NCBI GenBank assembly: GCA_025774805.1
Contig: JALGZR010000080.1
Span: 1-28,659, forward strand
From: a bacterium
Lineage (GTDB): Bacteria; ARS69
Reading direction: 5' to 3'
DNA length: 28,659 nt
Below the pieces are notes generated by a model, which worked only from the letters and a program-made list of their open reading frames with translations, searched no databases and was not told the DNA's origin. A program made the translations under genes and the position numbers. Shown here one piece after another: positions 6,925 through 25,381 of the stretch. The number at the start of each line of letters is the position of its first letter. The stretch's first letter is position 1.

Positions 6925-6953
6925 CGACCCCGCCACAAGTGAAGGAGACGTCG

Positions 6954-8694: not shown

Positions 8695-8720
8695 CGACGA
8701 ATCTCCGGAGGAGTGGGTCC

Positions 8721-9566: not shown

Positions 9567-9581
9567 CCAGGAGTGAACACG

Positions 9582-10841
9582 ATGGATGCGGTCACCCGAG
9601 CTCGACTATGGCCCGAGTTCATCCGTGTCATCCGATTCCTGAGATCCGAGATGAAGCCCAAGGGTCCGCTGGTGACGCCCTTCAACTTGATTTCGATTCC
9701 CGTCATCCTCCTCGGATTGGGAATCCTGGTCGTCCGTTTCACCAAGGGATTGGGTGCGGTGACGAACCTGAACCAGGCCTATCCGTGGGGATTCTGGATC
9801 GGCTTCGACGTGGTCACGGGGGTCGCATTCGCGGGGGGAGCATACATCATCTGCTTTGCGGTCCACGTAATGAAGATGGAGAAATATCATCCCATCGTCC
9901 GCGTCACGGTCCTCAACGGCCTGCTGGCGTACGTGTTCTATGCCGGGGCCCTGGTTCTCGATCTCGGCCGCCCGTGGAACATCATCAATCCGATCATCGG
10001 CAACGACTTCGGATACAGCTCGGTCCTGTTCCTGGTCTCCTGGCACTTCCTGCTCTACATGATTGCCGAGTTCGTGGAATTCTCCCCGGCGATCGCCGAA
10101 TGGCTCCGGTGGAGACGAGTCCGGAGGTTCTTGAACACGTTGACTCTGGGTGCCGTGATCTTCGGTATCACACTCTCGTGCCTTCACCAGTCGGGACTCG
10201 GTGCTCTCTTCCTGATGGCCAAGCCGAAGATCCACCCTCTCTGGTACTCGGAGTTCATCCCCATCTTCTTCCTCGTCTCCAGCATCTACTCGGGGCTGTC
10301 GATGATCATTCTCGAGGGCACCATCAGCCATCGGGTGTTCTCGTCTCAGCTCGACCACGACCGACACAAGGAGTTCGACGAGATCATCTTCGGACTGGCC
10401 AAAGGTGCGGCCATCGGCATGTTCGTCTACTACTTCTTCAAGGCGCTGACCTTCGTCCACGATCACCACTGGAATCTCATGGGGGATTTCTGGGGATTCT
10501 GGTACCTGCTCGAGGTGGTGGGCTTCGTGTTGCTCCCCTGCGCGCTGTTCGCCAACGGGGCCAGAAACCGCCGGATCAAGGTCATTCGACTCGCGGCAGT
10601 ACTGGCGCTGGTGGGGATCCTCCTGAACCGTCTGAACATTTCGCTCATCGCGTTCAACTGGAACTCGCCCGTGAAGTACTGGCCATCCTGGGAAGAGATC
10701 GTCGTGACGCTGATGGTCGTGTTCACGGAGATCTGGGTCTTCCGCTGGATCGTTCTTCGGATGCCGGTGATGCGGGAGGCACACACCCTTCCCACGCGGC
10801 CCGGGAAACCGGCTCGACAGCAAGCGGGATTCCCGGGGTGA
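9582..10841 (+). CDS. NrfD/HmcC-type integral membrane quinone-interacting subunit
   Basis: 419 residues with about ten hydrophobic segments. Features typical of the long NrfD-family (HmcC/HybB/QrcD) subunits are present: YPWGFWIGFDVVTGVAFAGG near the N-terminus, DLGRPW, and SCLHQSGLGALFLM in the middle. The family binds menaquinone without haem and connects it to a periplasmic ferredoxin subunit. I chose ATG 9582 because AGGAG lies 8 bases upstream; GTG 9573 would be too close to that site. The gene begins 15 bases after the ferredoxin gene and is followed 19 bases later by the small HmcD-like gene. The direction of electron flow (quinol oxidation or menaquinone reduction) cannot be read from the sequence. 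Confidence 0.92.
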   Translation: MDAVTRARLWPEFIRVIRFLRSEMKPKGPLVTPFNLISIPVILLGLGILVVRFTKGLGAVTNLNQAYPWGFWIGFDVVTGVAFAGGAYIICFAVHVMKMEKYHPIVRVTVLNGLLAYVFYAGALVLDLGRPWNIINPIIGNDFGYSSVLFLVSWHFLLYMIAEFVEFSPAIAEWLRWRRVRRFLNTLTLGAVIFGITLSCLHQSGLGALFLMAKPKIHPLWYSEFIPIFFLVSSIYSGLSMIILEGTISHRVFSSQLDHDRHKEFDEIIFGLAKGAAIGMFVYYFFKALTFVHDHHWNLMGDFWGFWYLLEVVGFVLLPCALFANGARNRRIKVIRLAAVLALVGILLNRLNISLIAFNWNSPVKYWPSWEEIVVTLMVVFTEIWVFRWIVLRMPVMREAHTLPTRPGKPARQQAGFPG

Positions 10842-10860
10842 CGCGACGGAGGAACGTCTC

Positions 10861-10983
10861 GTGGAAACCTACACCTATGTCAACATCTTCGAGACCAAGG
10901 GGCTGGAGTATCTGCTGCTCATGGCCTTCTTGGTACTCTTCATCTTCTTGGTGCGCTACGTGCGGGAGCCGAAGAGGAAGTAG
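10861..10983 (+). CDS. HmcD-like 40-residue single-pass membrane subunit
   Basis: A small gene of 40 residues with GTG start and GGAGG 7 bases upstream. The product has a polar aromatic N-terminus (ETYTYVNIFETKGLEY), one membrane helix at about 17-34, and a basic tail REPKRK. In Desulfovibrio hmc operons a tiny membrane protein, HmcD, follows HmcC; size, position and layout match. It is the last gene of this plus-strand operon. No HmcE or HmcF homologues follow, since the next genes are convergent. Confidence 0.8.
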   Translation: METYTYVNIFETKGLEYLLLMAFLVLFIFLVRYVREPKRK

Positions 10984-11045
10984 GGGGACGCGGAGGCGGG
11001 ACGCCGCCAGACGTGAGCAGGGAAACGAACGCTCCCTCGGAACAT

Positions 11046-11073
11046 GGCCGGACCGGCGCGGGAGGGTCCGGTC
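11046..11073 (+). terminator. candidate terminator hairpin of the plus-strand operon
   Basis: CCGGACC (11048-11054) pairs with GGTCCGG (11065-11071), extendable by two pairs, around a 10-base loop. TCTTCG follows instead of a clean T-run, so it could also be a 3' stability hairpin. Confidence 0.45.
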
Positions 11074-11118
11074 TTCGCACGTGCGATGATCATCAGTCCC
11101 ACGCATTCGGGGAAAGCA

Positions 11119-11166: not shown

Positions 11167-13464
11167 TCACATTCCCCGGCGGCGCATGTCCCGACGCCGG
11201 GCCTTCCGGACCGACACCGCCACCAGGAGCCCCGCCGGCGAGCCCTCCGTCCCTATCCGATCGGACGTGGTGAGGAGGTGCGCGAGCCCTTCCGGCTCCT
11301 TTTGGGTCGCGCTGCCTCCCTGCACGTCGGATAGGAAGCCGTAGTGCTCGGGCAGGAAGAGCACTCCCGGGATCACCCGATCGGTCAACCAGAGGCGGGC
11401 GGTCGCCGATCCGCGCTCCGAGGTCACGGTGACCCAGTCGCCGTCGGTCAGCCCGAGCCCGCTCCCGTCGTCCGGGTGCATCTCGAGCTGCGCGGTCGGG
11501 GCCTCGTAGTGGAGCTCGGCCGTCCGCCCGGTCCGCACGCGGGACCGGAAGTGCTCCCGGAGCGGCCCGACGGTCGCACCGAGGCCGGAGGGAACCGGCG
11601 GCGATCTCCAGACCGGGTCGGCGGCGCCGTCCGCGGTCATCCGGACCGCCCCCGGCTCGTCTTCGGAGGCGCAGGGCCAGGGGACGTCGAGCTCCTGGCG
11701 GAGACGGGAGAAGGAGATCCCACCCGCCTCGAAGGGGGTCCCTCGGGAGATCGCGCGCCAGCGATCCCATTCGGGCGCGGAGGATGGGAAGAGCCGCTCG
11801 AACGTGCCCGGAGCCACGATGGCTCGGGCGATCTCGGTGAGCGTCCGCTCGGCGTCGCGCGCCTCTCCCGGCGGCTCGGTGGCCCGCTCCAGAAGCTGAC
11901 AGCGCCGGTCGAGCGTCATCATCGTCCCGGACGATTCCCCGGACACGAGACCCAGGGGCAGAACGACGTCGGCCAGGAGGGTCGTCTCGGACGGAACGTG
12001 CGTCGACGTGACCGCGGTGAAGGCGCTCCGCAGCGCATCCCGCCAGGCCCCCGAATCCGGCATCTCCGCGGCGGCGTTGGTCCGGTGGACGAGGAGCGCA
12101 CCGAGGCGACCCTCCCGAACCGCGGCCGGCCACTCGAGGAACGTGAGCCCGGGGCGGGCGGGCAGCGCGTCGGAGGTGACGCCCCACTCCCGCGCCGTCT
12201 TCTCGCGATCGCCCGGATCGTCGAGGCGGCCTCCCGCGGGCAGCCACCCCGGTCGGATTCCGAACGCCACGACCCCGGTCGCGTTCGCCCCGCGGGGCAG
12301 GAAGAGCGGGCCTTTCCCCGGACTCCCCCACCGTTCCGTCTCCCGGTGCAGCCGGGCCACGGCGTGCGCGAGCGCCGCCCCGGTCGGCGAGCCGAGCGCC
12401 GTCGGTCCGACGATCGTCACGGGCTTGCGCGCTTGATTCCACGCGTCGCGAAGAGCGGCGATCGGGGCGGCGTCGATTCCCGTCGCCCGACGACCCGCCA
12501 GAGCGTTCACGGCCGCCAGCTCCCGCCCCGGTCGCGGTCGGAGGTGGAGGTCCGCGATTCCGGCCGCGAGCGTCTTCCGGAAGTCGACGAGCAAGACGCG
12601 GCACGTCCCCGCCCGGCGGCCGTCGAGCACGCGGTAGAAGAGATTCGGATGGCTCTCCGCGAGGTCTCCCCCGATGAGAACGCAGAGATCCGCGGCGTCG
12701 ACGTCCTCCACCGTGCCGGGGTTGGCCGCGACGCCGAAGACGTCCGCGCAGGCGTCGTAGGCGTGCAGAGCGTCGAGACGGGCGGGCGTGTCGAGATGAT
12801 CGGTTCCCATCCCGGCCCGGACCAGACGGGCCAGAACGGAGTAGGTCTCGCACGTCTCGCCGTCGGAGGCCAGCACGGCGACGCCCCCGGCCCCGATGCT
12901 CTCGCGCACTCTCCGGAACCTCTCCGCCACGGTCGCGAGCGCCTCGTCCCACGACACCGGCTCGAGACCTTCGAGAGTTCCCTTCGTCTGGGGGTCGCGC
13001 CGAACGAGCGGTTGAAGCGCGCGATCTTCGCCGGCGGCCGCCGTTCCGGTGAGCGCCCGCGCGCGGGGGCACAGACGGCCGAAGCCGGTCCTCGACCGGG
13101 GGATTCCCTTGACCGCGACGAGCTTCCCCTCCCGGGCGCCGAGAAAGACCGGCTCCCCGAGCCCGCAGAGGTCGCAGACCGAGCGCGACCAGCGATCGAC
13201 GTCGCCCGCGAGGGGCGAGCCGCCCCCGGCCACCTCCTCCGGCGCGCCGCCCCCGGCCGCCTCCTGCGCCGCGGCCTCCCCGCCGAGGAGGCCACGGCGG
13301 AGGTCGGGAAGCGTCGCCCCCACCGCGAGCGTCACCGCGCAGCGGCCGCACTGACCGAGGAAGCGCCGGCGACTGATCACGGGTTCGCGGCCGAAACCGG
13401 CCGCCGGCCCGCCGCCGGCCACGATGCCCTCTTGGGGGAGGGAGAGGGGACGGCGACCGCTCAT
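11167..13464 (-). CDS. Tat-exported molybdopterin-oxidoreductase-like protein with altered cluster and metal ligands
   Basis: 765 residues. A Tat signal (ISRRRFLGQCG, about 30-40) is followed by a low-complexity linker and then a domain of the NapA/FdhG-like molybdopterin superfamily, ending in a MopB C-terminal beta-barrel region (AQLEMHPDDGSGLGLTDGD, VIPGVLFLPEHYG). The N-terminal cluster motif is incomplete: CDLCGLGE (C97, C100) has E104 where the third Cys is expected, and the fourth is C132 (GRLCPRA). The segment matching the active-site ARLC motif of NapA-type enzymes reads ARLDAL, so D231 replaces the Mo-ligating Cys. The ATG overlaps the upstream stop (ATGA) and has GGGAGG upstream. 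As the last gene of the cytochrome b6-type operon, it may be a periplasmic oxidoreductase or a non-catalytic structural subunit. Substrate unknown. Confidence 0.82.
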   Translation of the reverse strand: MSGRRPLSLPQEGIVAGGGPAAGFGREPVISRRRFLGQCGRCAVTLAVGATLPDLRRGLLGGEAAAQEAAGGGAPEEVAGGGSPLAGDVDRWSRSVCDLCGLGEPVFLGAREGKLVAVKGIPRSRTGFGRLCPRARALTGTAAAGEDRALQPLVRRDPQTKGTLEGLEPVSWDEALATVAERFRRVRESIGAGGVAVLASDGETCETYSVLARLVRAGMGTDHLDTPARLDALHAYDACADVFGVAANPGTVEDVDAADLCVLIGGDLAESHPNLFYRVLDGRRAGTCRVLLVDFRKTLAAGIADLHLRPRPGRELAAVNALAGRRATGIDAAPIAALRDAWNQARKPVTIVGPTALGSPTGAALAHAVARLHRETERWGSPGKGPLFLPRGANATGVVAFGIRPGWLPAGGRLDDPGDREKTAREWGVTSDALPARPGLTFLEWPAAVREGRLGALLVHRTNAAAEMPDSGAWRDALRSAFTAVTSTHVPSETTLLADVVLPLGLVSGESSGTMMTLDRRCQLLERATEPPGEARDAERTLTEIARAIVAPGTFERLFPSSAPEWDRWRAISRGTPFEAGGISFSRLRQELDVPWPCASEDEPGAVRMTADGAADPVWRSPPVPSGLGATVGPLREHFRSRVRTGRTAELHYEAPTAQLEMHPDDGSGLGLTDGDWVTVTSERGSATARLWLTDRVIPGVLFLPEHYGFLSDVQGGSATQKEPEGLAHLLTTSDRIGTEGSPAGLLVAVSVRKARRRDMRRRGM

Positions 13465-14477
13465 GACCCACCTCCCGGAGACGACGCGGCCCCGGCGTCC
13501 GGCCCGGCGTCCGGCGCGGGACGGCGGCGGATCTCGCCCGCCATCCCGATCGGGGTCCACCGCCGGATCAGGGGATCGGAGTTCTCGAGCCGGTAGCGCG
13601 CGTTGCGCTCACTGTGACACTGAACGCAGAGCGGAACGAGGAACTCGATCGTCTCGTCGGTGAGTCGTCGCGGATCCTTGGGATGGCGCCCAACCGTGAT
13701 CGCGGAATCGTGAAGCGTGACCCGATCCCTCCGGTAGTCCCCCGTCTCCCTCAGAATCGGGGACTCGGGCATGTGGCAGAAGACGCAGTCGGGCGCCCGG
13801 ATGTCTCCGTCCGGGCCGACGGGATGTTCGGCGAGAACCGTGCCCATCCTCGAGGCGGGGAATCCCTGCACGTGCTCGGAGTCGAGATGGCAGCCGGTGC
13901 AGAGCGCCACCGAGCCGATGAGTCCGCGATCGGTCGCGTGCGCCTCGTGACAGGAGATGCAGCGCATCCCCGGAGCCCGCTCGGGTCCGTGCCCGGAGGC
14001 GAGGAACTCCTCGACCTGCGGAGCGTGACAGACGATGCACCGGTCGACCCCGGGCTTCGTGATGAATCCCTCCTCGTGCGTTCCGTGACAGCTTCCGCAG
14101 AGGACCCCGGCCTTCGCGTGGGCGCTCTCGAGCCAGTCCGTGACGGCGAAGGACGTCTGGCTGACCGAGTGACAGCGCAGGCAGAGGGATCGGTACGCGG
14201 GCCCCTCCGGCTCCGCCCACGCGTCGCCCACCGGAATCGCTCGGGTGAGCTGCCCGGGCGGAACCTCCATGTCTTCGAATTCCTGCGAGAGCCCGGGGGT
14301 GTCGGGCCCGGTCACTGCTGTCGCCGGGTCGGCGGCACCGGAGGAGCCGGGGGGAGGCAGGGGGGGATCGTCGCCGCCGCAACCGAGACCACCGAGGACG
14401 AGGAGTCCGAGCCCGGGGATCAGCCGGCACCGGGCCGCTCCGCGAACCCACTCCGTCCATCGCTCGAGGCCACCCAT
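13461..14477 (-). CDS. heptahaem cytochrome c, exported
   Basis: 338 residues. The N-terminal hydrophobic stretch LIPGLGLLVLGGLGC looks like an export signal, possibly with a lipobox ending at C33, followed by a Pro/Gly-rich linker. Seven CXXCH motifs follow: CLRCH (C99), CGSCH (C127), CIVCH (C147), CISCH (C173), CTGCH (C193), CVFCH (C231) and CVQCH (C284). Additional His residues such as SAHAKAG, SGHGPE and CHEAHA suit bis-His coordination, and the spacing recalls the HAO/c554/NrfB-like multihaem superfamily. I prefer ATG 14477, which has AGAGG 6 bases upstream; ATG 14483 is possible. It lies 34 bases after the hexahaem cytochrome gene and overlaps the molybdopterin gene. Within the operon it probably relays electrons between the Rieske/cytochrome b core and the Mo-like subunit. 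Confidence 0.88.
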   Translation of the reverse strand: MGGLERWTEWVRGAARCRLIPGLGLLVLGGLGCGGDDPPLPPPGSSGAADPATAVTGPDTPGLSQEFEDMEVPPGQLTRAIPVGDAWAEPEGPAYRSLCLRCHSVSQTSFAVTDWLESAHAKAGVLCGSCHGTHEEGFITKPGVDRCIVCHAPQVEEFLASGHGPERAPGMRCISCHEAHATDRGLIGSVALCTGCHLDSEHVQGFPASRMGTVLAEHPVGPDGDIRAPDCVFCHMPESPILRETGDYRRDRVTLHDSAITVGRHPKDPRRLTDETIEFLVPLCVQCHSERNARYRLENSDPLIRRWTPIGMAGEIRRRPAPDAGPDAGAASSPGGGS

Positions 14478-14511
14478 GCGCATCCTCTCGACCGGCGGCC
14501 CGGCCACCGGC

Positions 14512-16161
14512 TCAACCACCGGGCGCGTCCGTGGGGGCGCGCTCCAGGACGCTCGGGCCGCCGTCACGGTGGCGTCGGGGATGGTGACACTTCACGCAGA
14601 CGTTGATGTCGCCCGCCTCGCCGGGAACGTTTCGCCGGCTCACCGCCTCGCGGGCCAGTCGGGAGGAGTGAGCGAGCAGAGCATTACCGCGCGCCTCGTC
14701 GCCTTTTCCGAGGAGCTCCTCGCCGACGAGCATCATCTCATTGTAGCGCTCGCCGGGACCGTGACAACCCTCGCACGTGACACCCGGCTCCGCGTACGTG
14801 CCGGCTGTCGAATCGTAACCGGTCGAGTGACAGGGAAGACAGGGCGTGGGATCGACTTCGTCCGCGAGACGCTCGATGCTGCGGAACTTGGTGGCGAGCC
14901 AGCGCCGGCTGTGCTCGCGGTGCTGGACCTCGTGACAGCCGAGGCACTTTCCGGAGCCGACGTAGCGGAGCGGACGCCCGCGCACCGAGAAGATCCACGG
15001 ATCGATGCCGGCCATCAGGAGCGCGCTCTCGTCCGGCTCGTCCCCCTCGCGATCTCCCGGCTCGAAGTAGGCCTCGGCCGTGAGCCACCACTCCGCCCAC
15101 GCGGCCGCCGCGGCCGAGTCCTCGTCCGCGACCTCCCGCTCTCCGGACCGTTCCAGCGCGGGATCGATTCCGGTGATGCGACGGAGCTCGTCCCGGGCCA
15201 CCTCCCGCACGGCAGGATCCGGGCTCGACAGCTCCTCGATCCGGGCGCGGAACGAGCGCGGCCCCGCTCCGAACCCGGCGGCGGTGAGCAGCCCCCGGTG
15301 CGCGTCCATCACCGACAGGGCGCGACCGCTTCCCCGGTGACAGACGGTGCACGGCACGTCGCGGAACACCTCCATCGCCGGCAGGGGGGGATGAACGCCG
15401 GGCGGATCGTCGAGCGTGCCGTGGCACGTCGGGCAACGCGCCACCTCGCTCCGGCCGGGGGAGACGATCTCCCGTATCCGGATCCGCCGGTTCCGCAGTC
15501 GGGCGAGCGCGGACTCCCGCGTCGCCACCGGCTCGAGAAGACGCGACCGCACCGTCTCCAGGCTGTCGCGAACGCTCGTGAGCTCCAACGCCTCCAGTCG
15601 AAGCATCCTCGCCTCGCCCTGCTTCTCCTCCAGGAGCGCGCGCCACTCCCGAACCGGACCCTCGATCGCGACCAGCCGGTCACCGAGGGAGTCGCGAATC
15701 GCCCAGAGCCGCCCGAGGCGCAACGTGTCGGGCGGCCAGCTCCCGCTCTCGGCGGCGTAGGCGGCGCGGACCCGGTCCAGCGCGTCGGTCACCTCGCGGT
15801 GGAGCCGCGTCGTCTCGGGCTCGCGCAGCCGGCGATCGGCGAGGCGGAGCTCTCCACGGATCTCATCGACCTCTTCCTCGATCTCCTGGAGACGGGTTTG
15901 CACCGCCGAGAGACGAGCGGTCGACGCGGTGGTGTCGGCGCGGAACTCGCGGAGCCGCACGTCGATCCGCTCCAGCTCGGCGCGGAGCTCCGGCCGCTCG
16001 AGTTCCGATCGGGCCTGCGCGAGCTCTCTCTCGAGCCGGTCGGTCTCGCGGCGAACGAGCTCCTCCTGATACCGGCGCCACTTCGGAAACGCGTCGTCCC
16101 AGAGCGTCCAGACCGTGACCGCGAGAAGGGCGAGAACGAGAAGCGCGAACGCGGAACGCAC
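14512..16161 (-). CDS. membrane-anchored coiled-coil hexahaem cytochrome c
   Basis: 549 residues. An N-terminal membrane helix (3-20) is followed by about 200 residues of almost pure coiled coil (about 30-232, rich in E, R, L and A heptads). The haem part then begins: CPTCH (C243) and CTVCH (C271); after a helical spacer come CLGCH (C406), CLPCH (C441), CEGCH (C463) and CVKCH (C522). The last four, with CLGCHEVQHREHSRRW, resemble cytochrome c554-type tetrahaem domains. The spacer contains a HEAT-like helix pair (DPAVREVARDELRRITG). The start is GTG with GAGG 7 bases upstream, 9 bases after the subunit IV gene, so stoichiometric production with the b-type core is likely. It probably replaces cytochrome f/c1 as acceptor for the Rieske protein, with the coiled coil acting as stalk or oligomerisation unit. 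Confidence 0.88.
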   Translation of the reverse strand: MRSAFALLVLALLAVTVWTLWDDAFPKWRRYQEELVRRETDRLERELAQARSELERPELRAELERIDVRLREFRADTTASTARLSAVQTRLQEIEEEVDEIRGELRLADRRLREPETTRLHREVTDALDRVRAAYAAESGSWPPDTLRLGRLWAIRDSLGDRLVAIEGPVREWRALLEEKQGEARMLRLEALELTSVRDSLETVRSRLLEPVATRESALARLRNRRIRIREIVSPGRSEVARCPTCHGTLDDPPGVHPPLPAMEVFRDVPCTVCHRGSGRALSVMDAHRGLLTAAGFGAGPRSFRARIEELSSPDPAVREVARDELRRITGIDPALERSGEREVADEDSAAAAAWAEWWLTAEAYFEPGDREGDEPDESALLMAGIDPWIFSVRGRPLRYVGSGKCLGCHEVQHREHSRRWLATKFRSIERLADEVDPTPCLPCHSTGYDSTAGTYAEPGVTCEGCHGPGERYNEMMLVGEELLGKGDEARGNALLAHSSRLAREAVSRRNVPGEAGDINVCVKCHHPRRHRDGGPSVLERAPTDAPGG

Positions 16162-16170
16162 GATCCGACC

Positions 16171-16959
16171 TCAGAGATTGAATCCGACGCGGGGGAAGCT
16201 CACCAGATACTGGAGATCGAAGGCGAGCCGCAGCGCGATCTTGATCCCGGTGCCGATCATGGCGAGCAGCAGGAGCGCGAACGTCCACCGCCGCACGGGA
16301 GTGAAGCCTTTCCAGGTCCGCACGCGCCGAACGATGAGCATTCCACCCCCGACGAAGAATGCGAGCACCAGGGGCACACCCACCCAGTTCGGCAGCGCGC
16401 GCGACGCACCTGATAGCTCGGCATGCACCCCGGTCGCCCCCGGCCACACCCACGCCCATCCCGGACCCCGGAACCAGAGACCGATCGCGATGAGCAGGAA
16501 CCAGCCGACGAGACCGACGAGGAAGATGGCCATGGCCATGGGCCGCCGCCGGAACGCGTAGAGCCCCATTCCCGTCCGGGTCGGGTCGATGTAGGGGACC
16601 GCGCAGAGACCGAAGATGATGACCAGCGGAATGCCCACTCCCGCCACCCACGGATCGAAGTAGACGAGAAGCTCCTGGAGTCCCACGAAGTACCAGGGGG
16701 CCTTGGCCGGATTCGGCGTCCGGGTGGGATCGGCGGGATCCTCGAGCGGCGCATCGAAGACCAGCGAGATGACCATGAGTCCGATGACGAGGACGAGCGT
16801 CGCCAGCGTCTCGCGAAACAGGAGATTCGGCCAGACCGGCACGAGGTCGGTCCGATCGGGGGGGGCGGGGCTGGCCCCGGGCGGATGCACGTCGCCGAGC
16901 ACGCGTCCCCCGGCCGGGTCCCGGGCTCCTTCCCTTCGAGGGGGCGGTCCGCTCGTCAC
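16171..16959 (-). CDS. cytochrome b C-terminal / subunit IV-like protein (extended)
   Basis: 262 residues. The first 40 residues are polar. The motif NPAKAPWYFVGLQELL (83-98) marks the subunit IV/cytochrome b C-terminal domain at the quinol-oxidation site. The usual PEWY is APWY (A87-Y90), so the conserved Glu is missing. About five membrane segments follow (52-68, 106-124, 142-162, 190-210, 226-245), two more than plant PetD, so the C-terminus is extended. GTG 16959 is preceded by GGGAGG with a 5-base gap, 17 bases after the cytochrome b6 gene. The split b6/IV arrangement is that of b6f-type complexes. A longer open frame upstream overlaps cytochrome b6 out of frame and is not part of this gene. 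Confidence 0.9.
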   Translation of the reverse strand: MTSGPPPRREGARDPAGGRVLGDVHPPGASPAPPDRTDLVPVWPNLLFRETLATLVLVIGLMVISLVFDAPLEDPADPTRTPNPAKAPWYFVGLQELLVYFDPWVAGVGIPLVIIFGLCAVPYIDPTRTGMGLYAFRRRPMAMAIFLVGLVGWFLLIAIGLWFRGPGWAWVWPGATGVHAELSGASRALPNWVGVPLVLAFFVGGGMLIVRRVRTWKGFTPVRRWTFALLLLAMIGTGIKIALRLAFDLQYLVSFPRVGFNL

Positions 16960-16976
16960 GATTCCCTCCCGTCGCC

Positions 16977-17738
16977 TCAATAGCGGGCGAGCACGCCGCC
17001 GTCCCGGCGCACGCGATAGAAGTGGACCGCGAGAAGAATCACCAGGATGACGGGAACGACCACGCAGTGCAGCACGTAGAAGCGGAGAATCGCCGCATCG
17101 CCGACCACGCGGTCTCCGAGCAGGAGCGCGCGGACGTCGTTGCCCTCTCCGACGACCGTGAACGGGCCGAGGTGGCCGACGATCGGGGCGGCTCCCGCCA
17201 TGTTGGTCCCGACGGTCACCGCCCAGTAGGCGAGTTGGTCCCAGGGAAGGAGGTAACCGGTGAAGCTCAGGAACAGAGTGAGCACGAGGAGCATCACCCC
17301 GACGACCCAGTTGAACTCGCGGGGCGGCCGGTACGCTCCCGCCAGGAAGACGCGCGCCATGTGGGCGATCACGAGGAGCACCATCGCGTGCGCGCTCCAC
17401 CGGTGCAGGTTCCGGAGCAGCCGGCCGTACGGAACGGTGTGCATGATGTCCTCGATGTCCGCGTACGCGTACTCCGCGGTCGGACGGTAATAGAACATCA
17501 GGAGGATTCCGGTGACGGTCACGATCACGAAGGAGAGGAACGCCAGCCCGCCCATGCAGAACGTGCGGCGAAACCGGAGCGAGGCCGCGGAGATCTGCAG
17601 GGGATGGAGATGCAGGAAGACGTTCGAGACGATGACCGCGAGTCGCGAACGGGGCGTCTGGGGAACTCCGGTTCGGAAGATCGATCGCCAGAGCTGACTG
17701 TCGCGGAGCGCCCGGAACCGTTCTCTCCCTCCGGACAC
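16977..17738 (-). CDS. petB: cytochrome b6-like protein with haem ci cysteine
   Basis: 253 residues, four membrane helices. The haem b ligands are H112 and H126 in the second helix ([15 protein letters not shown]) and H224 and H239 in the fourth; the 15-residue spacing of the second pair is the b6 rather than the mitochondrial b pattern. FCMGG followed by [11 protein letters not shown] matches the region of cytochrome b6 where a Cys covalently binds haem ci; C61 is that residue here. The [16 protein letters not shown] segment lies at the quinol-oxidation site. The GTG start has GGAGG 8 bases upstream. Together with the Rieske and subunit IV genes it forms the core of a menaquinol:cytochrome oxidoreductase. 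The symbol refers to the family; the complex is not photosynthetic as far as the window shows. Confidence 0.93.
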
Positions 17739-17778
17739 GCGACTTACCTCCGTTTCCCCGGCGACCGCGCGAGCGCCG

Positions 17779-18297
17779 TCACAGCCGGACGAAGAATCGC
17801 GGATCCCGCACCGCCCGATCGAGCGGGGCCCGGAGAGAGGAGTCGACCAGCACCTGGTCGTGCTCCACGCGGATCGCGAGGCGGTGCAGGGGCTCCACCG
17901 CCGGACCGTTCAACGCCTCTCCTTCGGGCGAGAAGCGGCTGCCGTGACACGGGCAGCGAAACAGGCCCCGATCGGGCATCCAGCGTGGCGTGCAGCCGAG
18001 GTGGGTGCAGACCGCCTCGAGCGCGAACAGACGCGCGTCCCGGTTCACGATCCACAGCCCGTGACGGCTCACCCAGCGCGTCGTCACGGCCGGTGAACGA
18101 TAGTCCTGGATCGTCCCGAGCTCGACGGGGCCGCCCGTGCCGTGCAGACCCTGCGGTCGGAGAAACCGGATCGTGCACGGGACGGACGCCGTCAAAAGAA
18201 CGCCCACTCCTCCCCATCCGATGCCTTGGAGCAGACGCCGGCGGGCTAAGGACCGGGGGTCGTCCAGACGGTCTGGAATCGATTCGGCCGAATCCAT
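17779..18297 (-). CDS. petC: Rieske [2Fe-2S] protein
   Basis: About 172 residues. An N-terminal twin-arginine region ([19 protein letters not shown]) gives one membrane anchor and suggests Tat insertion. The cluster motifs are CTHLGC (C97, H99, C102) and CPCHGSRF (C115, C117, H118), with both disulphide cysteines present, as in high-potential Rieske proteins of bc1/b6f complexes. The start is uncertain: ATG 18297 or ATG 18306, both overlapping the end of the flavoprotein gene by about 50-60 bases, and neither with a strong ribosome site, which suggests translational coupling. The cytochrome b6 gene begins 40 bases downstream. Confidence 0.92.
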
Positions 18298-19838
18298 AGC
18301 TCCCATCTCAGCGCTCGGGAGGGGCAACCGGCGACACAATCCCCGCAGCGCATGCAGAGGTCATCGTGAACCGTGAGTCGCGAGGCGCCGTTCACGATCT
18401 GTCGCCAGGCGAGCGCGCCGTGGGCGCATCGCGTCTCGCATCCTCCGCAGAGAACGCATCGCTCCGCGTCGAGCGTGAGACTCAGATCGCAGCGCAGGCA
18501 GCGACCCGCCTCTCCGGGGACGACGGCGAACGGGAGAACGGAGAAGCTCTCGGGCCTCTCCGGCGTCTCGCCGATCGACTCCGGCGCACCGGGAGGGCCT
18601 CCCTCGGCCGGCGCCCGGGCGGGACGCTCCCCGCTCCAGCGGCCGGACCGCGCCAACCAGCTCACGATCGCGACGGCCGCCTCCCGGCCGGCCGCGATTG
18701 CCTCGACCACGGTTCCGCCCCCGGCCGACGGAGCCCGGTGCGCGAACACGCCGGGAACGCGGGACAGGGGAGGCATCGACGTCGGGGACTGCCCGATCGA
18801 GAAGACGACCGCATCGCACGACCGGAAGTGCCCGCTCTCGGCAACTTCCTCGACCCGTCTCTCGCGGGGCGGAGCGTCGCCGTCCTCGAGCCGCGTCCGG
18901 ACGCACCGCACCCCTTCGAGAGTATCGGCTTTCCAGACGAGCTCGTTCACGCCCATCCACGGATGAATGCGAATTCCCTCCGACTCCGCGGCGGCGATCT
19001 CGTCCCCGAAGGCGGGCAGGTGCTCCCGGCCCCGCCGGTAGAGGATGGCGACCTCGGAGGCCCCGACCCGGAGCGCCGTCCGGGCGGAGTCGATCGCCCC
19101 GTTGCCGCCGCCGACGACGACCACGCGCTTGCCGTCCAGCCGGGCCCTTCCTCGGGCGACGTCCCGGAGGAACGCGATCGCGGTCCGGCTGACGGGGGCG
19201 GTCCGCCAGCCGGGCACCCCGGGCTCCCGATCGTCTCCCGCCCCGGTCGCGAGAAGCACCGCCGCGTACCCCTGGTCGCGGAGGGCCCGGAGCTGCTCCT
19301 CGCTCTCGAGGCGGAAGCCCGGCTCGAAGCGGATGCCCAGGGAGAGGATCCGCCGGATGTCCGCCTGGGCCACCTCGGGGGGTAACCGGAAGTCGGGAAT
19401 GCAATCTCTCAGAAGTCCCCCGGGATGATCGTCCCGGTCGAACAGCGTCACCTGCGCCCCGGCGACCGTGAGGTCGTGGGCGGCGGCGAGCCCGGCGGGG
19501 CCCGCTCCGATGATCGCCACCTCGGGGCCGCCGCCGCGCGGCAGGAACTGCATGTCCGGCGGGGGGTCGTGAGAATACGTCACCCACCGCTTGAGATCGC
19601 ACACCTGCACCGCGGTCCCGCTTCCCCGGAGTCGGCACGCGGATTCGCAGGGACGGGGGCAGATCCACCCCAGGACTCCGGGGAAGAGGCTGTCGCGATA
19701 CGCGATGCGCCACGCTCCGGCCGAGTCGCCCCGGGCGATCGCCCTTAAGAAGCCGGGGATGTCCTTGTCGACGGGGCAGGCCGCCCGGCAGGGAGGACCC
19801 GAGCCCTGGCAATCGCTCCGCTGCGGTCCGCCATCCAT
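18246..19838 (-). CDS. GltD-like FAD/NAD(P)H oxidoreductase with C-terminal 2[4Fe-4S] ferredoxin domain
   Basis: 530 residues. The N-terminal segment has GltD-type cluster cysteines (C10, C17, C21; C60, C64, C68, C80). An FAD-binding fold starts at VAIIGAGPAGLAAA (about 107-120) and an NAD(P)H-binding fold at VVVVGGGNGAIDSA (about 239-252). The C-terminus carries CVLCGGCETRC and CMRCGDCVAGCP, two [4Fe-4S] clusters, preceded by an extra CLRC pair. The protein lacks an export signal, so it acts on the cytoplasmic side. In glutamate synthase this module takes electrons from NADPH; here no glutamate synthase large subunit is nearby. The gene begins 3 bases after the preceding stop (GAGGG upstream) and its end overlaps the Rieske gene. 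Similar flavoproteins are encoded in anammox Rieske/cytochrome b operons and are proposed to link quinol and NAD(P). That role here is inferred. Confidence 0.9.
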   Translation of the reverse strand: MDGGPQRSDCQGSGPPCRAACPVDKDIPGFLRAIARGDSAGAWRIAYRDSLFPGVLGWICPRPCESACRLRGSGTAVQVCDLKRWVTYSHDPPPDMQFLPRGGGPEVAIIGAGPAGLAAAHDLTVAGAQVTLFDRDDHPGGLLRDCIPDFRLPPEVAQADIRRILSLGIRFEPGFRLESEEQLRALRDQGYAAVLLATGAGDDREPGVPGWRTAPVSRTAIAFLRDVARGRARLDGKRVVVVGGGNGAIDSARTALRVGASEVAILYRRGREHLPAFGDEIAAAESEGIRIHPWMGVNELVWKADTLEGVRCVRTRLEDGDAPPRERRVEEVAESGHFRSCDAVVFSIGQSPTSMPPLSRVPGVFAHRAPSAGGGTVVEAIAAGREAAVAIVSWLARSGRWSGERPARAPAEGGPPGAPESIGETPERPESFSVLPFAVVPGEAGRCLRCDLSLTLDAERCVLCGGCETRCAHGALAWRQIVNGASRLTVHDDLCMRCGDCVAGCPSRALRWELWIRPNRFQTVWTTPGP

Positions 19839-19841
19839 GGG

Positions 19842-21005
19842 CTATCCCTCGTCCTCTCCGGACTCCACGTCGGGCACGACGACACGGAGCTTCAGCCGAT
19901 CGAGGCCGGGAACGCTTCCCGCGTCCCAGCTCGCGAGGGCGTCCTTTTCCGAAACGTCGAGCCGGATGTGCGTGAGATCGGCGGGAAGCTGACCCAGGTA
20001 GGGGTCGACGGGAACCCAGCCGTCGAGCCAGACCTCCGCCCAGTGGTGGAGATAGAAGGCGGTCCGGCGCGCCACGAATCCGAGACGGGAGCGGGCCGGT
20101 ACGCCGGCCGCCCGCGCCATCTCGACGAACGCCCGGGTGAACTCGGTGGCATCGCCGCTCCTCTCGCGCAGGACCACGGCGGTCTCCGGTGTGCCCTCGC
20201 GGTACTCGCGCACGATCATCTCGTCCAGCCAATCGAGGATGAGCTCGATCCGCTCCTCGGGTTCGCTCTCCGATCCGATCGCCTCGGCCACCGCCCGCAG
20301 GAGATCCTCATCGGAAGAGGCATCGACCCGGCCGGCTTCCTCCCCCTCCCGCGGCTCGACCTCTTCCATCACGATCTCTCCCCGGTTCGGCGCCCGCCGT
20401 GTCCACTTTACGAGCTTCTGTCCGTCGTCGTTCGCGAAGAACCGGCTGAGATCCAGTCGACGATCGCCCTCGACGGCCACGCGCAGGGATCCGTTTTCGA
20501 CCCGGATGTCCTTCAGGGAGGCGGGGAAGCGTCCGATGCCGCTCAGCTCCCGGTTTACCCGGAGGAAGGGAAGGAGCTCCGGATCCACCGCATTGGCCGT
20601 ACGAGCCCGTCGCTCGGAATCGAAGATCAGAAACCCCAGAATTACCTTCACGTCCGCCGGCGAGATGCCCGACCCCGACTTCCGGCTCATGCGGTTCACG
20701 TAGGCGTCCCATTCGTCGCCCCGCAGCGTGGAGTTGATGGGGCGGGCGAGTGTGTGGCACTTGCAGCACTTGCGCGCGAAGTGGGCGTACGCCTGCTTCT
20801 GATCCTCGGGATAGGCGCTGACGTCGATCCATGCGGGACCAAGATCGGCGTCGAACACGCGGAGCTCCTCTTCGTCGGCCGCGTCCTGGGCGCGGGCGAC
20901 GGGGCCTCCGAACCCGAGCGTCAAGAGCGATACAGCGACGGCGAAGCGCCCGACGGTCGAGACCCGCCGGGTCGCGGCGGATCGCGCTGAGAACCGGGAT
21001 CCCAC
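19842..21005 (-). CDS. exported monohaem cytochrome c fused to a transglutaminase-like domain lacking its catalytic Cys
   Basis: 387 residues. A signal peptide ends near VARAQ (about residue 40). One CXXCH (CCKCH, C80-H84) lies in a short cytochrome domain with M106 as a possible axial ligand (NRMSRKSGSG). From about residue 240 the fold is transglutaminase-like: GDATEFTRAFVEMARAAG, GVPARSRLGFV, HHWAEVWLDGWVPVDP. The His (H321) and Asp (D334) of the triad are present, but the nucleophile position is A286 in GDATE where active members have GDCTE. It is therefore probably a binding domain rather than an enzyme. The GTG start has GGAGGGG upstream, and the gene sits 38 bases after the barrel gene and 3 bases before the flavoprotein gene, inside the operon. 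Confidence 0.85.
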   Translation of the reverse strand: MGSRFSARSAATRRVSTVGRFAVAVSLLTLGFGGPVARAQDAADEEELRVFDADLGPAWIDVSAYPEDQKQAYAHFARKCCKCHTLARPINSTLRGDEWDAYVNRMSRKSGSGISPADVKVILGFLIFDSERRARTANAVDPELLPFLRVNRELSGIGRFPASLKDIRVENGSLRVAVEGDRRLDLSRFFANDDGQKLVKWTRRAPNRGEIVMEEVEPREGEEAGRVDASSDEDLLRAVAEAIGSESEPEERIELILDWLDEMIVREYREGTPETAVVLRERSGDATEFTRAFVEMARAAGVPARSRLGFVARRTAFYLHHWAEVWLDGWVPVDPYLGQLPADLTHIRLDVSEKDALASWDAGSVPGLDRLKLRVVVPDVESGEDEG

Positions 21006-21043
21006 GTGATGCCCCTCCGTGTCGTTCGGGCCCGGATGTCCCG

Positions 21044-22171
21044 TCAGTAGGTGATCACCGCGCCGAGATGGAGGACGTCCACCTCGGCGAAGTCGGTGAA
21101 GCGCCAGCGTTCGTATTGGAGCCGGAACGCGTAGTCGATCGTCGGCTTCACGTTGGCGCCCACGGTAAAGCGGACGATGGCCGAGGACTCGTCGTTGTTC
21201 GTGCCCAGGGGGACACCCTCGCGGAGCAGTCCGTCGAATCGTCCCACCAGGTCGAGGTACCGGCCGACCGGAGCCTCGACCTGCGCGTAGAACCCGTCCT
21301 TGTGCACGATGTTCAATCGATCGTCGTCGAGGACGTCGGTTCCGCGGTGCAGGTACTCCCCGCGAAGTTGGATTCCGCGCACGTACACCGACCCGTCGAT
21401 GCCCCAGGCGTCGTAATCGTAATCGCCGTCCGGATCGTAGGTGCCGCGCAGATAGGACCCTCCGAGGGCGAAGGGCCCCTGCGCGAGCGCGAGGCGGCCC
21501 CCCCAGGACGGGGAGTCGTTGTTGTCGATGACCCCCGCATCGGCCACCTGGTTCTTGAACGTGAAATCCCGGGGCGAAGAGGACTGGAAGCCGTTCACTC
21601 CGTAGACCGCGTACCAGATCTGCAGCTGGTCACGAATCCAGACGTCACCGAACAACGAGGCGCCGTGATCGACGTAGGGCATGGGCAACACGCCCAGATT
21701 GAACTGCGTGCTCTGGTAGCGAATCATGTGCCCCATCGCATAGGGGAGCGGCTTCGAGAGGAACGCGTCGTTCGCCGGGTCGTGACGCAGATAGAAATCG
21801 CCGAACGGGACGTTGATCCGCCCCGCCTCCGCGCTGAGACGCCGGTGGAGACGGATCTCGGCGTAGGCCTGATCGACGGTGATCCCGTGGCAGCTCGTGC
21901 AGATCCTGCCGTTGAACGAGAGCCTGTCCGAGACGTCGACGGTCGCCTTCAGGCTCCACTCCACGAGGGAGCCGGCGTACCCGAGGACATCTTCTCCCTC
22001 CGCCGGGTCGTCGAGGATGTTCGTGTGGTCGAGCGTGATCGACCCCGACCAGTTCCAGCGGGCGGCATCGGCCGGCGATGCCGTCAAAAGCATGAGAAGC
22101 AGGACGACCGCGACCGGGAAGGGACGGGCGCCGGGCCGCGGCCGGTCCCTAGTTGCACTCTTCGGGATCAT
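21044..22171 (-). CDS. outer-membrane beta-barrel-like protein with an internal CXXCH motif
   Basis: 375 residues. A signal peptide (hydrophobic VAVVLLLMLLT, cleavage near ADA-AR at about 36) is followed by alternating polar/hydrophobic strands rich in aromatic and charged residues. The protein ends in a strand finishing HLGAVITY with a terminal aromatic residue, all typical of outer-membrane porins. ICTSCHG (C91, C94, H95) near the third strand is a potential haem c site, unusual in a barrel. The ATG lies inside the end of the preceding lipoprotein gene (23-base overlap) with AAGGAG about 10 bases upstream. Its place among cytochrome genes suggests an electron conduit or porin-cytochrome role, by analogy with MtrB/PioB, but no clear sequence kinship to those is visible. 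Confidence 0.75.
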   Translation of the reverse strand: MIPKSATRDRPRPGARPFPVAVVLLLMLLTASPADAARWNWSGSITLDHTNILDDPAEGEDVLGYAGSLVEWSLKATVDVSDRLSFNGRICTSCHGITVDQAYAEIRLHRRLSAEAGRINVPFGDFYLRHDPANDAFLSKPLPYAMGHMIRYQSTQFNLGVLPMPYVDHGASLFGDVWIRDQLQIWYAVYGVNGFQSSSPRDFTFKNQVADAGVIDNNDSPSWGGRLALAQGPFALGGSYLRGTYDPDGDYDYDAWGIDGSVYVRGIQLRGEYLHRGTDVLDDDRLNIVHKDGFYAQVEAPVGRYLDLVGRFDGLLREGVPLGTNNDESSAIVRFTVGANVKPTIDYAFRLQYERWRFTDFAEVDVLHLGAVITY

Positions 22172-23537
22172 CGGGCGCCGCTCCTTCCAGTATCCAGACG
22201 CGCATCTTCTCCTGAAGAAATGGGAACACGGGGGGGAACTGATCCGGAGGCATGGGGTCTCCGGCCCACGTCTCCTCGGTCGTCTCCGCGGTGATCTTGT
22301 TGTAGAGGAAGCTGGCCTCCGGTCGGCCGGGAGCGACGATCGGGAACGCCGTCGTCAGGCCGCCCGTTATCAGGCCGGAGTAGGTCCGGAGATCGTACTC
22401 CATGCTGGGCCACTCCGAAGTGTTGGGATTGTGGCAGAACGTGCACATGCTCCACTCGATGATGTCTCGCATGATGTCGTCGCAAAACGTGTACGTTCCT
22501 TCCGCCAGCACCTCCATCGGAATCGGGTCGGAGTATCCGGTGGTCCCCCAGGCGTTCGTGACTTCCAGCGTGATCGCGTGGGTCCCCACGGTAAGGTACT
22601 GAGCCTGAGTCTCCCGGCCGGTGCCGATCGACCCGTCGACGCTCGAGCGCCAGATGATCTGATCGGGCGGGATCGGGATCTCGTCCTCCTCGGTGTCGGA
22701 CACGGTTCCCTCCAGGACGAGAATGCCGCGGGTGGCGACCGTGTCCATGTCCCCGGCGGGGAAGTCGATCTCGGCGACCGGCACGCCGTTGTTCACGTAG
22801 ACCTGCACGGGGTCGCTCACCCCGACGCTGCCCAGGGTGGTCGTCGCCTTGGCCGTGAGAACGTACCGGCTCGTGGGGAGCAGCCTCGTGTCGAGCTCGT
22901 ACGTCCAGGGAGGCGTGGTGAGCTCTCCGACGGGGAAGATCCCGGCGAAGAACTCCACCTTCTCGATGTCCGGCGCCGCCCCGGGGAAGTCGACGGCGAT
23001 GGGGAGCCGGCCCTTCACCAGAGCGCTGTCGGGGGGAGAGGTGATGACGACCTCGGGGCCGAGATTGAAGACCTGCGCGTAGACCGCTCCACTGGTCCCC
23101 GTGTTTCCGGCCGCGTCGACCGCTGTGGCCTCGAGGCGGTGGGTGCTCGCCTCGTCGAGAATTGTGGTGTCCCACATTAACGTCCAATCCGGCCCGGGAA
23201 CGTCGACCGCCGGTCCGCCATCGATGGTGAGCGAGACCTGAGCCACCCCCACGCTGTCCTCGGCTTGGATCGCGACCGGATAGGTGGAGCCGCTCACCGG
23301 AGTGGCGTGGGCACTGTCAGGGCCGGACGGCGCCAGGAAGCTCACGGTCGGCGGGGTCCGATCCGTCGGGGTGACGGGGCCGGTGGGGGGATCGTCCTCG
23401 TCCCAGTAGCGATCCCACTCCGAACAGGCGGATCCAAGGACCAGACCGATGGCGGCGAGGAGGGCGAGCGTGACGGATCTCGGCCCGGGGAAACGGGGTT
23501 TGCGCCACTCTGGGGTCGGTTTCGGGTGCGAGATCAT
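22149..23537 (-). CDS. lipoprotein with three Ig-like domains and C-terminal monohaem cytochrome domain (copy 1)
   Basis: 462 residues. Lipoprotein signal ending LVLGSAC (C38), then a Pro/Thr-rich linker. Three beta-sandwich repeats follow: about 62-162 (IDGG, ATAVDAAGNTG), 165-268 (PEVVITSPPDSALVKG, with FFAGIFPVGELTTPPW) and 272-350 (PKD-like, LEGTVSDTEEDEIPIPPDQI). The C-terminal region has CTFCH (C365-H369) and a later DPMPP Met, the pattern of surface-associated monohaem domains. It is a close paralogue of the next gene upstream, both beginning MISHPKPTPE. ATG 23537 is conserved between the copies; ATG 23546 is an alternative. The product is probably a lipid-anchored cytochrome working with the barrel encoded directly after it. 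Confidence 0.85.
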   Translation of the reverse strand: MISHPKPTPEWRKPRFPGPRSVTLALLAAIGLVLGSACSEWDRYWDEDDPPTGPVTPTDRTPPTVSFLAPSGPDSAHATPVSGSTYPVAIQAEDSVGVAQVSLTIDGGPAVDVPGPDWTLMWDTTILDEASTHRLEATAVDAAGNTGTSGAVYAQVFNLGPEVVITSPPDSALVKGRLPIAVDFPGAAPDIEKVEFFAGIFPVGELTTPPWTYELDTRLLPTSRYVLTAKATTTLGSVGVSDPVQVYVNNGVPVAEIDFPAGDMDTVATRGILVLEGTVSDTEEDEIPIPPDQIIWRSSVDGSIGTGRETQAQYLTVGTHAITLEVTNAWGTTGYSDPIPMEVLAEGTYTFCDDIMRDIIEWSMCTFCHNPNTSEWPSMEYDLRTYSGLITGGLTTAFPIVAPGRPEASFLYNKITAETTEETWAGDPMPPDQFPPVFPFLQEKMRVWILEGAAPDDPEECN

Positions 23538-23546
23538 CCCTGGCAT

Positions 23547-23914
23547 TTCGGCACGGTGAGTGACGCGGCGTCTCCGCGGTCAGGGGAGGGTCCTACGAGC
23601 TTACACTCCGGAAATCCGGAGGACAAGGGCCATCATAGCAAGAGGTTACGTCGCGAAATCGATCAGGGCCGGACGCGGGACAGAGTTGCCCCGAGGGCCG
23701 CTCGGGATGCCGGGATTCCGCCGAAGGGAGGGCAGGCCAGCCTGCAATTCTCACCAGGCTCGTCGCGAGGCTGCGGATAGCCGTGTTTGGCGAGGAGACG
23801 GGGGGCTTTCGCCCGAGGCGGGGCCGTAGCCCCGTCGCAGGGCGGAAGCCCCGCAGCGACGAAGTCAGGCGCGGCTTTGCCGCTGCCGCAGCAGAGGCTG
23901 GTGAGATGCGCAGG
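23547..23914. other. intergenic region between duplicated lipoprotein genes
   Basis: About 370 bases with no credible gene. It contains a promoter-proximal block conserved with the region upstream of the paralogue (23638-23651), a small hairpin CTCCGG-AAAT-CCGGAG at 23606-23621, and a long nested inverted repeat at 23739-23916. Confidence 0.6.
23638..23651 (-). promoter_or_regulatory. conserved upstream block ACGTAACCTCTTGC (copy 1)
   Basis: This 14-base block is identical to 25440-25453 and lies exactly 101 bases before the conserved ATG in both paralogues. It may contain a -35-like element or regulator site. It may also be only a remnant of the duplication. Confidence 0.4.
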
Positions 23915-23916
23915 CT
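23739..23916. repeat. long nested inverted repeat (178 bases)
   Basis: Outer arms 23739-23760 and 23895-23916 match at 18 of 22 positions. Next, TCGTCGC..CTGCGG (near 23760-23776) faces CCGCAGCGACGA (23851-23862). Inner arms GGGGCTTTCGCCC (23802-23814) and GGGCGGAAGCCCC (23840-23852) differ by one base, and the tip is CGGGGC-CGTA-GCCCCG (23819-23834). The right arm includes the stop codon of the upstream lipoprotein gene. It could act as a terminator, a 3' processing element or a small non-autonomous mobile repeat. Confidence 0.6.
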
Positions 23917-25339
23917 AGCCGCACTCTTCGGGGTCATCGGGTGCGGCCCCTTCCAGGATCCAGACGCGCATCTGCTCCTTGAGGTAATCGAACACCGGGG
24001 GAAACAGGAGGGGCGGAGGAGGAGGCATGGGTTCTCCGACCCAAGCGTCCACGCTGTCCCACACCGCGGTGATCTTGTTGTAGAGGAAGCTGGCCTCGGG
24101 TCGACCGGGAGAGACGATCGGAAACGCCGTCGTCAGGCCGCCCGCCATCAGACCGGAGTAGGTCCGGAGATCGAGCTCCATGTTCGGCCACTCCGACGAG
24201 TCGGGGTTATGGCACTTCGTGCACTGGCCCCATACGATGATGTCGTCCATGATGTCTTCGCAGAACATGTAGGTGCCCTCCGCCAGTACCTCCACCGGAA
24301 TGGAGTCGGATCCGCGGGTCCCCCACGCGTTCGTGACCTCGAGCGTCACCGTGTGCGATCCCACGGTGAGATTCTGGACCTGGATGTTCAGGCCGGTGCC
24401 GATCGGTCCGTCGAGATCCGAACGCCAGACGATCTGGTCGGGTGGAATCGGAATCTCGTCTTCCTCGTCGTCGGACGCCGTCCCCTCGAGAACCAGAGTG
24501 CCTCGAGTGGCGAACTTCCATGGAACGGGAGCGCCCACCGTATCCACTGCCGGGATCGGAAAGTCGATCATCACGTCCGGTATGCCGTTGTGGACGTAAA
24601 TCCCTACCGGGGGGTCGCTCACCCCGACGCTACCGAGGCTGGTCGTTGCCTTGACCGTGAGGACGTACCGGCTCGAAGGTAGCGGCCTCGTATCGAGAAC
24701 GTACGTCCAGGGGGGCGCCGTGAGCTCACCGATGGGGAAAATCCCGGCAAAGAACTCCAACCTCTCGATATCCGGCACCGCGCCGAGAAACTCGACGGTG
24801 ATCTCCAGCTGGCCCTTCACGAGCGCACCGTCGGCGGGGGAAGAGATGACGACCTCGGGACCGAGATTGAAGACCTGCGCATAGACCGGTCCGCCGGTTC
24901 CCATGTTGCCGGCCGCGTCGACCGCCGTCGCCTCGAGCCGGTGGGTGCTCGTCTCGGCGAGAACCGTCGTGTCCCACATCAACGTCCAGCCCGGTCCGAG
25001 GACATCCAGCGCCGGTCCGTCGTCGATGGTGAGCGCGACCTGAACGACCCCCTGATCGTCGTCCGCGTCAATTACGATCGCGTAGGTAGAGCCCTTGACG
25101 GCCGTGGCGTGGGCCGGGTCCTGGCCCGAGGGTGTCAGGAAGCGCACGGTGGGGGGCACCGTATCGGAAGGCGTCCCGGGTCCGGTGGGGCCGGTGTCCT
25201 CGTTCCAGTATCGGTCCCACCTCGAGCAGGCCGACCCCATGACCAGGCCGAGGGTCGCGAGAAGGGCGACCAGGACGTTCCTTCGTCGGAAGGAAGGGGA
25301 TTCCCGCCGCTCTGGAGTCGGTTTCGGGTGCGAGATCAT
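23915..25339 (-). CDS. lipoprotein with three Ig-like domains and C-terminal monohaem cytochrome domain (copy 2)
   Basis: 474 residues, organised like its paralogue: lipobox VMGSAC (C38), three Ig/PKD-like repeats, then CTKCH (C373-H377) with a later EPMPP Met and the shared ending EGAAPDDPEEC. Small insertions account for the extra length, including a VGAPVPWKF stretch in the third repeat and a Pro run after EPMPP. It is the first gene of the long minus-strand series, and its upstream region resembles that of copy 1, so the duplication included regulatory DNA. ATG 25339 is conserved in both copies; GTG 25348 is in frame. Whether both copies share one transcript is not clear because of the 370-base gap and the strong inverted repeat between them. 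Confidence 0.85.
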   Translation of the reverse strand: MISHPKPTPERRESPSFRRRNVLVALLATLGLVMGSACSRWDRYWNEDTGPTGPGTPSDTVPPTVRFLTPSGQDPAHATAVKGSTYAIVIDADDDQGVVQVALTIDDGPALDVLGPGWTLMWDTTVLAETSTHRLEATAVDAAGNMGTGGPVYAQVFNLGPEVVISSPADGALVKGQLEITVEFLGAVPDIERLEFFAGIFPIGELTAPPWTYVLDTRPLPSSRYVLTVKATTSLGSVGVSDPPVGIYVHNGIPDVMIDFPIPAVDTVGAPVPWKFATRGTLVLEGTASDDEEDEIPIPPDQIVWRSDLDGPIGTGLNIQVQNLTVGSHTVTLEVTNAWGTRGSDSIPVEVLAEGTYMFCEDIMDDIIVWGQCTKCHNPDSSEWPNMELDLRTYSGLMAGGLTTAFPIVSPGRPEASFLYNKITAVWDSVDAWVGEPMPPPPPLLFPPVFDYLKEQMRVWILEGAAPDDPEECG

Positions 25340-25381
25340 CGCTAGCACTTCGGCGCGGTGGAAACCTGGCCACTCCGTGAT

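Follow-up and report, generated by a model that had tools for sequence, protein, structure and literature searches.

The anammox complexes Kustd1480-1485 and Kuste4569-4574 are built from a Rieske protein, cytochrome b6, subunit IV and a GltD/NfnA-like subunit with an iron-sulfur (Fe-S) chain, and a hexa- or octahaem cytochrome c takes the place of cytochrome f (PMC12954380). An NAD(P) oxidoreductase is part of these complexes, which have been proposed to produce NAD(P)H by bifurcation, and the subunits of Kuste4569-4574 co-migrate as a complex (PMC12954380). The Geobacter extHIJKLMNOPQS cluster joins a porin, Rieske protein, b6, subunit IV and several multihaem cytochromes c (PMC5877670). Nitrospina, Kuenenia and Methylomirabilis have octahaem b6 operons that likewise contain Rieske proteins, split cytochrome b and multihaem c (PMC3578206). 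The Nap cluster of Caldithrix abyssi, described as a nitrate reductase with NapM and NapGH, contains a NapA-family molybdenum (Mo) protein, Rieske/cytochrome b and multihaem c (PMC5317091). Here we describe a nine-gene operon related to these systems on contig JALGZR010000080.1 (assembly GCA_025774805.1) of a bacterium of the ARS69 lineage; the whole contig of 28,659 nucleotides (nt) is called the window. We favor, with some reserve, the reading that this operon encodes a menaquinol-oxidising Rieske/b6 complex in which a multihaem cytochrome stands in for cytochrome f and further modules have been repurposed in the lineage.

Results

All nine open frames occupy the minus strand between 22171 and 11167, and the gaps separating them range from about -60 to +80 nt (Table 1), as a first-pass annotation of the window had described. 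The 13 multihaem c sites that it listed were also found, six CxxCH motifs in the hexahaem and seven in the heptahaem protein; the barrel and the haem/transglutaminase protein carry one each. The window is one contig (C18) of a draft genome, G000, with 284 contigs and a contamination estimate of 5.06%.

The core of the operon retains the ligands of the Rieske cluster, the b haems and haem ci. The Rieske cluster ligands (CTHLGC and CPCHGS) are present. Cytochrome b6 has four hydrophobic segments and the histidine pairs H112/H126 and H224/H239, spaced by 13 and 14 residues. The haem-ci position is occupied by Cys61 and is Cys in 51 of 82 relatives. Subunit IV has KAPWYF instead of PEWY, and because KAPWYF occurs in essentially all relatives of the subfamily it is a trait of that subfamily. 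Family searches of the nine operon proteins gave no cytochrome f match, and multihaem cytochromes c are present instead. The earlier description of a b6-type quinol-oxidase core with multihaem cytochromes thus stands. The best-scoring model for b6 is ExtP, yet its score, like that of ExtQ for subunit IV, is below the cut-off (Table 1); these scores and the gene content rule out an Ext cluster.

The hexahaem protein has an N-terminal hydrophobic segment (residues 3-21). The heptahaem protein is probably a lipoprotein, judging from the lipobox-like LVAAC of an orthologue (70% identical) in the genome G004, described below. MqnC, a futalosine menaquinone gene of the host genome, scored above cut-off, which supports the earlier assignment of menaquinone as the quinone; the genome also has two COX1 genes. 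A Rieske/b6 complex that oxidises menaquinol and feeds a periplasmic wire of 13 haems is well supported. Contig C38 of the same genome (locus L159, 5630-9647) holds another Rieske/b6-type cluster, which comes with a separate cytochrome of 18 haems.

The phylum sample consisted of five genomes, all of one family, and only one of the others, G004, which belongs to another genus, also carries the operon, split over two contigs. Contig C732 has the end of the transglutaminase gene followed by GltD, Rieske, b6 (78% identical), subunit IV and the start of the hexahaem gene; contig C554 has the hexahaem end (79%), the heptahaem gene and the Mo protein gene, after which gene order diverges. The two hexahaem parts are 54-79% identical to the window protein. 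Eight of the nine genes, all but the barrel, are collinear in G000 and G004. This collinearity in two genera argues against a binning artefact, and it agrees with the expectation that the flavoprotein, multihaem and Mo genes would be conserved beside the b6/Rieske core.

The GltD-like subunit contains N-terminal Fe-S cysteines, Rossmann-type flavin adenine dinucleotide (FAD) and NAD motifs, and a C-terminal 2x[4Fe-4S] ferredoxin domain. All 15 Fe-S-type cysteines tested are retained. The Gly-Asp of the FAD site, found in 40 of 40 relatives, is replaced by Arg-Ala or Asp-Ala in the window and G004, and the stretch preceding this position is missing in both genera. The subunit most likely serves as an Fe-S relay whose flavin site is lost or altered, rather than as a normal NAD(P)H enzyme. 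The first-pass annotation had proposed a complex linking NAD(P)(H), menaquinone and periplasmic or extracellular carriers; loss of an invariant dipeptide in both genera weakens the NAD(P)(H) link and leaves it doubtful.

The Mo-pterin-family protein is related to NapA and formate dehydrogenase of the dimethyl sulfoxide (DMSO) reductase superfamily. Family searches and Protein Data Bank alignments showed near full-length homology, and it shares with these enzymes a twin-arginine translocation (Tat)-like signal and the pterin-dinucleotide domains; PF00384 and PF01568 are both complete. In both genera the metal-ligand Cys/Sec is replaced by Asp, the third Fe-S Cys by Glu and the relay Lys by Arg. 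The Fe-S site thus reads CxxCxxxE...C versus the usual CxxCxxxC...C. The active-site stretch ranks with the best conserved regions of the protein, and RLDALHAYDAC is identical in both genera. Aligned homologues of the Nap/Fdh type keep the usual residues at these sites apart from isolated cases (Arg for Lys in L015, no alignment at the ligand in L134, and L009, which is of the arsenite-oxidase type). The protein had been called degenerate; a better description is that its DMSO-reductase-family domains are complete and the changes are three specific, conserved substitutions. It is unlikely to be a standard nitrate reductase or formate dehydrogenase, and by sequence it is a subclass whose combination of substitutions is absent from the homologues aligned here.

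Within a sample of 386 genomes no close relative of the Mo protein was found beyond the two genera (over 1570 bits versus 294), and the heptahaem protein had no other match outside them; the idea that these two proteins are common elsewhere is ruled out within this sample. A decayed pseudogene was rejected because the frame is fully open, the protein is 61-66% identical in the other genus and the active-site stretches are identical. An AlphaFold2 model of the Mo protein, from 17 sequences, was uninformative with a predicted local distance difference test score (pLDDT) of 37. Contig C11 of G000 (L161, 7529-10497) encodes a NapA-like protein, in which the usual Cys and Lys are retained, and a likely NapD, so the Mo protein of the window is an additional, divergent relative. 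Unlike the Caldithrix abyssi cluster, the operon has no Nap partners, and its Mo protein has the ligand and Fe-S residues replaced (PMC5317091).

In the transglutaminase fusion the catalytic position is Ala (GDATE) versus Cys in 6g49 and in a paralogue from the same genome, a substitution seen in the window only, as the G004 sequence stops short of this residue. The C-terminal 58 residues of the fusion are conserved upstream of GltD in G004. The search for homologues of the fusion covered the five phylum genomes and the locus flanks.

A survey covered 80 loci with the closest b6 proteins, from many phyla, 42 of them well flanked. A GltD-like gene adjoins b6 in 23 of these 42 loci and a cytochrome with at least four haems in 32. 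The core of GltD-like subunit, Rieske, b6, subunit IV and multihaem c is thus not new but common in many phyla. With strict limits, a Mo-enzyme gene lies within 9 kb of b6 in 8 of 42 loci, compared to a chance rate of 1-2% as estimated from hit density and uncorrected for relatedness. Ethylbenzene-dehydrogenase-like Mo genes sit between Rieske and b6 in L008, L010 and L013 and, going by the size and order of its genes, in L145. In L030, L034 and L041 the multihaem gene of a GltD/Rieske/b6 cluster is directly followed by a gene for a type II DMSO-reductase/NarG-like protein of about 1200 residues; in L027 such a gene lies upstream. Other Mo-enzymes near b6 are Psr/NrfD-like (L047, L058 and L069), arsenite-oxidase-like (L009) or Qrc-like (L070). 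A family of haem-motif barrels, with an N-terminal FARKY.TSC.TCH motif and Phe as last residue, was found in L014, L019, L043, L052, L054, L057, L062 and L073; seven of these loci have it immediately upstream of GltD or Rieske, and the L019 barrel had no Pfam or NCBIfam match. Across many phyla the b6 family is repeatedly accompanied by GltD-like genes, diverse Mo-enzymes and haem-motif barrels, which supports the first-pass annotation.

Two of these arrangements were noted in their own right. In L008, L010, L013 and L145, subunit IV and an octahaem cytochrome follow where the locus extends that far; might the Rieske/b6 complex of these loci be devoted to a Mo enzyme of the hydrocarbon type? 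In L009 (2744-9253), two tandem pairs of Rieske and arsenite-oxidase-like Mo genes lie directly upstream of a Rieske/b6/octahaem cluster.

Table 1. Predicted genes of the operon and possible upstream members in the window
Feature	Coordinates	Strand	Evidence
Outer-membrane barrel, porin type, CxxCH at residue 91	21044..22171	-	Porin_4 1.1e-6, 29.2 bits, cut-off 27
One-haem c domain and transglutaminase-like domain fusion, Cys to Ala	19842..21005	-	Transglut_core 3.6e-18, one CxxCH
GltD-like subunit with C-terminal ferredoxin domain	18246..19838	-	Family searches, motif comparison
Rieske [2Fe-2S] protein	17779..18306	-	PF00355 8e-11; CTHLGC...CPCHGSRF
Cytochrome b6, haem-ci Cys61	16977..17738	-	PF00033 3e-44; ExtP model 265 bits, cut-off 290
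Subunit IV, KAPWYF for PEWY	about 16171..16959, start uncertain	-	ExtQ 56 bits (cut-off 150), petD 28 bits
Hexahaem cytochrome c, membrane-anchored, coiled-coil	14512..16161	-	Six CxxCH; Cytochrome_C554 2e-9
Heptahaem cytochrome c	about 13461..14483	-	Seven CxxCH
Mo-pterin-family protein, Tat-like signal	about 11167..13380	-	PF00384 3e-33; PF01568 1.5e-19
Possible upstream members: tandem immunoglobulin (Ig)-domain monohaem (PSCyt1) proteins	22149..25348	-	Tentatively grouped with the operon by spacing only

Neighbouring genes

The nearer of the two Ig-domain monohaem genes (23546-22149) is co-directional with the barrel gene, overlaps its start by 23 nt and encodes a protein 73% identical to its tandem partner (25348-23915). 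Because of this overlap the transcription unit may begin further upstream. The pair is lipoprotein-like and is a possible surface partner of the adjoining barrel.

On the plus strand, convergent on the Mo gene, a cluster at 4608-11089 resembles a second quinone-linked redox module. Its regulatory genes encode two response regulators and a sensor kinase that carries CxxCH-type motifs. The remaining products are a c7-like cytochrome with five haems (about 8130-8694), an Fe-S protein of the Tat type (8628-9566) and a membrane protein resembling NrfD (9573-10841). At 52-2151 on the minus strand, a CcoG-like polyferredoxin membrane protein with a tetratricopeptide-repeat-like C-terminal part was read from the translation.

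Discussion

The operon has the same core architecture as the anammox complexes, including a multihaem c in the place of cytochrome f; the first-pass annotation had pointed to the anammox Rieske/cytochrome b operons. It differs in lacking an HAO-like octahaem protein and in the loss of the FAD Gly-Asp, as compared without a residue-by-residue Kuenenia alignment, and it has a Mo-family protein, a heptahaem cytochrome, a transglutaminase fusion and a barrel as extras (PMC12954380). The Geobacter ext cluster includes genes for a rhodanese and a selenocysteine cytochrome, whereas GltD-like, Mo and transglutaminase genes are absent from it as described (PMC5877670). In contrast to the octahaem b6 operons, the window has six and seven haems in two proteins, in addition to the extra modules (PMC3578206). 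The statement that no complex with this full set has been described holds for the exact set but not for its principle, since the core and the adding of modules to it are already described.

For the direction of electron flow, the physical assembly and the terminal partners, we infer the following from gene content, order, conservation, ligands and substitutions. The first electron from menaquinol would pass from the Rieske cluster to the hexahaem and then the heptahaem cytochrome, and from there to periplasmic or outer-membrane partners such as the Mo-family protein and the haem-motif porin. The second electron would travel through the b haems and haem ci, either to quinone in an ordinary Q cycle or into the Fe-S chain of the GltD-like subunit. 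The attached GltD-like and Mo-family modules would have been repurposed in this lineage; that they lose canonical residues alike in both genera suggests new jobs. One physical supercomplex is plausible from the operon structure and the anammox precedent.

Several points weigh against this reading. The set is carried by two genera only, and in the second one it is split at a contig break. The GxGxxG and NAD motif of the GltD-like subunit are intact, and such a fold might still bind FAD. The core might also work without the Mo and porin parts, and these without it.

The barrel has a signal-like N-terminus and Tyr as last residue, and its gene lies 38 nt from that of the transglutaminase fusion. 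It may be, with the Ig-domain monohaem pair, a chance neighbour outside the system, a possibility that we take seriously but do not favor. The barrel and the pair were not found in the other genomes of the five-genome phylum sample, and the barrel is not of the FARKY type found beside other complexes (hhalign probability 2%, without detectable profile homology). An AlphaFold2 model of it from one sequence was uninformative (pLDDT 30). However, the lack of a match in G004 comes from a fragmented genome whose contig ends inside the transglutaminase gene, short of the barrel site. Membership of the barrel is also favored by its close spacing to the next gene, by the different haem-barrel family just upstream of GltD/Rieske in seven other loci and by the Geobacter ext cluster, which joins a porin to Rieske/b6.

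A full anammox-type mechanism is unlikely. In such a mechanism, quinol bifurcation would reduce NAD(P)+ through a working flavin site, driven by downhill periplasmic reduction at an active, Asp-ligated Mo enzyme replacing Kuste4574. The core is the same as that of Kuste4569-4574, for which bifurcation was proposed, and the Rieske protein carries the Ser plus Phe pattern of Kustd1480, which has been measured at +335 mV. His43 of b6, a possible counterpart of Kustd1481 His62, is invariant across the whole subfamily and the C-terminal Arg/Lys is conserved; both would be compatible with the interface haem b, held by a His of each b6 monomer, that was modelled in the anammox complex. NarG-type enzymes, too, bind Mo through Asp, and the intact GxGxxG and NAD motifs would also fit. 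Against these points, the FAD Gly-Asp and the stretch preceding it are gone in both genera, the third Fe-S Cys of the Mo protein is Glu, and a substrate of this protein is not known.

A bolder proposal, which we hold to be quite improbable, is a quinol-bifurcating supercomplex in which a flavin-free Fe-S relay, as the cytoplasmic arm, would deliver electrons of low potential to ferredoxin and not NAD(P), and a new class of Mo enzyme with an Asp ligand and a Glu-ligated cluster, as the end of the high-potential arm, would be wired by 13 haems towards an outer-membrane haem porin. An ordinary Q-cycle quinol:multihaem-cytochrome oxidoreductase, in which the Mo-family, GltD-like and transglutaminase-like proteins would serve as scaffolds poor in cofactors, is decidedly unlikely: canonical catalytic residues are gone from all three modules, and cofactor-free Mo-family subunits have precedents in the NuoG, Qrc and alternative complex III families, but the pterin-dinucleotide domains are complete, the RLDALHAYDAC stretch is unchanged between genera and every Fe-S cysteine of the GltD-like subunit is kept.

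The menaquinol-oxidising Rieske/b6 complex with repurposed modules that we prefer is relevant to the anammox Rieske/b complexes with NAD(P)-type subunits, which are unproven candidates for quinol-based bifurcation. A lineage that has their architecture and all Fe-S cysteines but no longer the flavin motif offers a natural way to test if the flavin, and with it NAD(P), is indispensable. That the same b6 core is accompanied by Mo-enzymes from several unrelated families suggests a respiratory platform of modular build.

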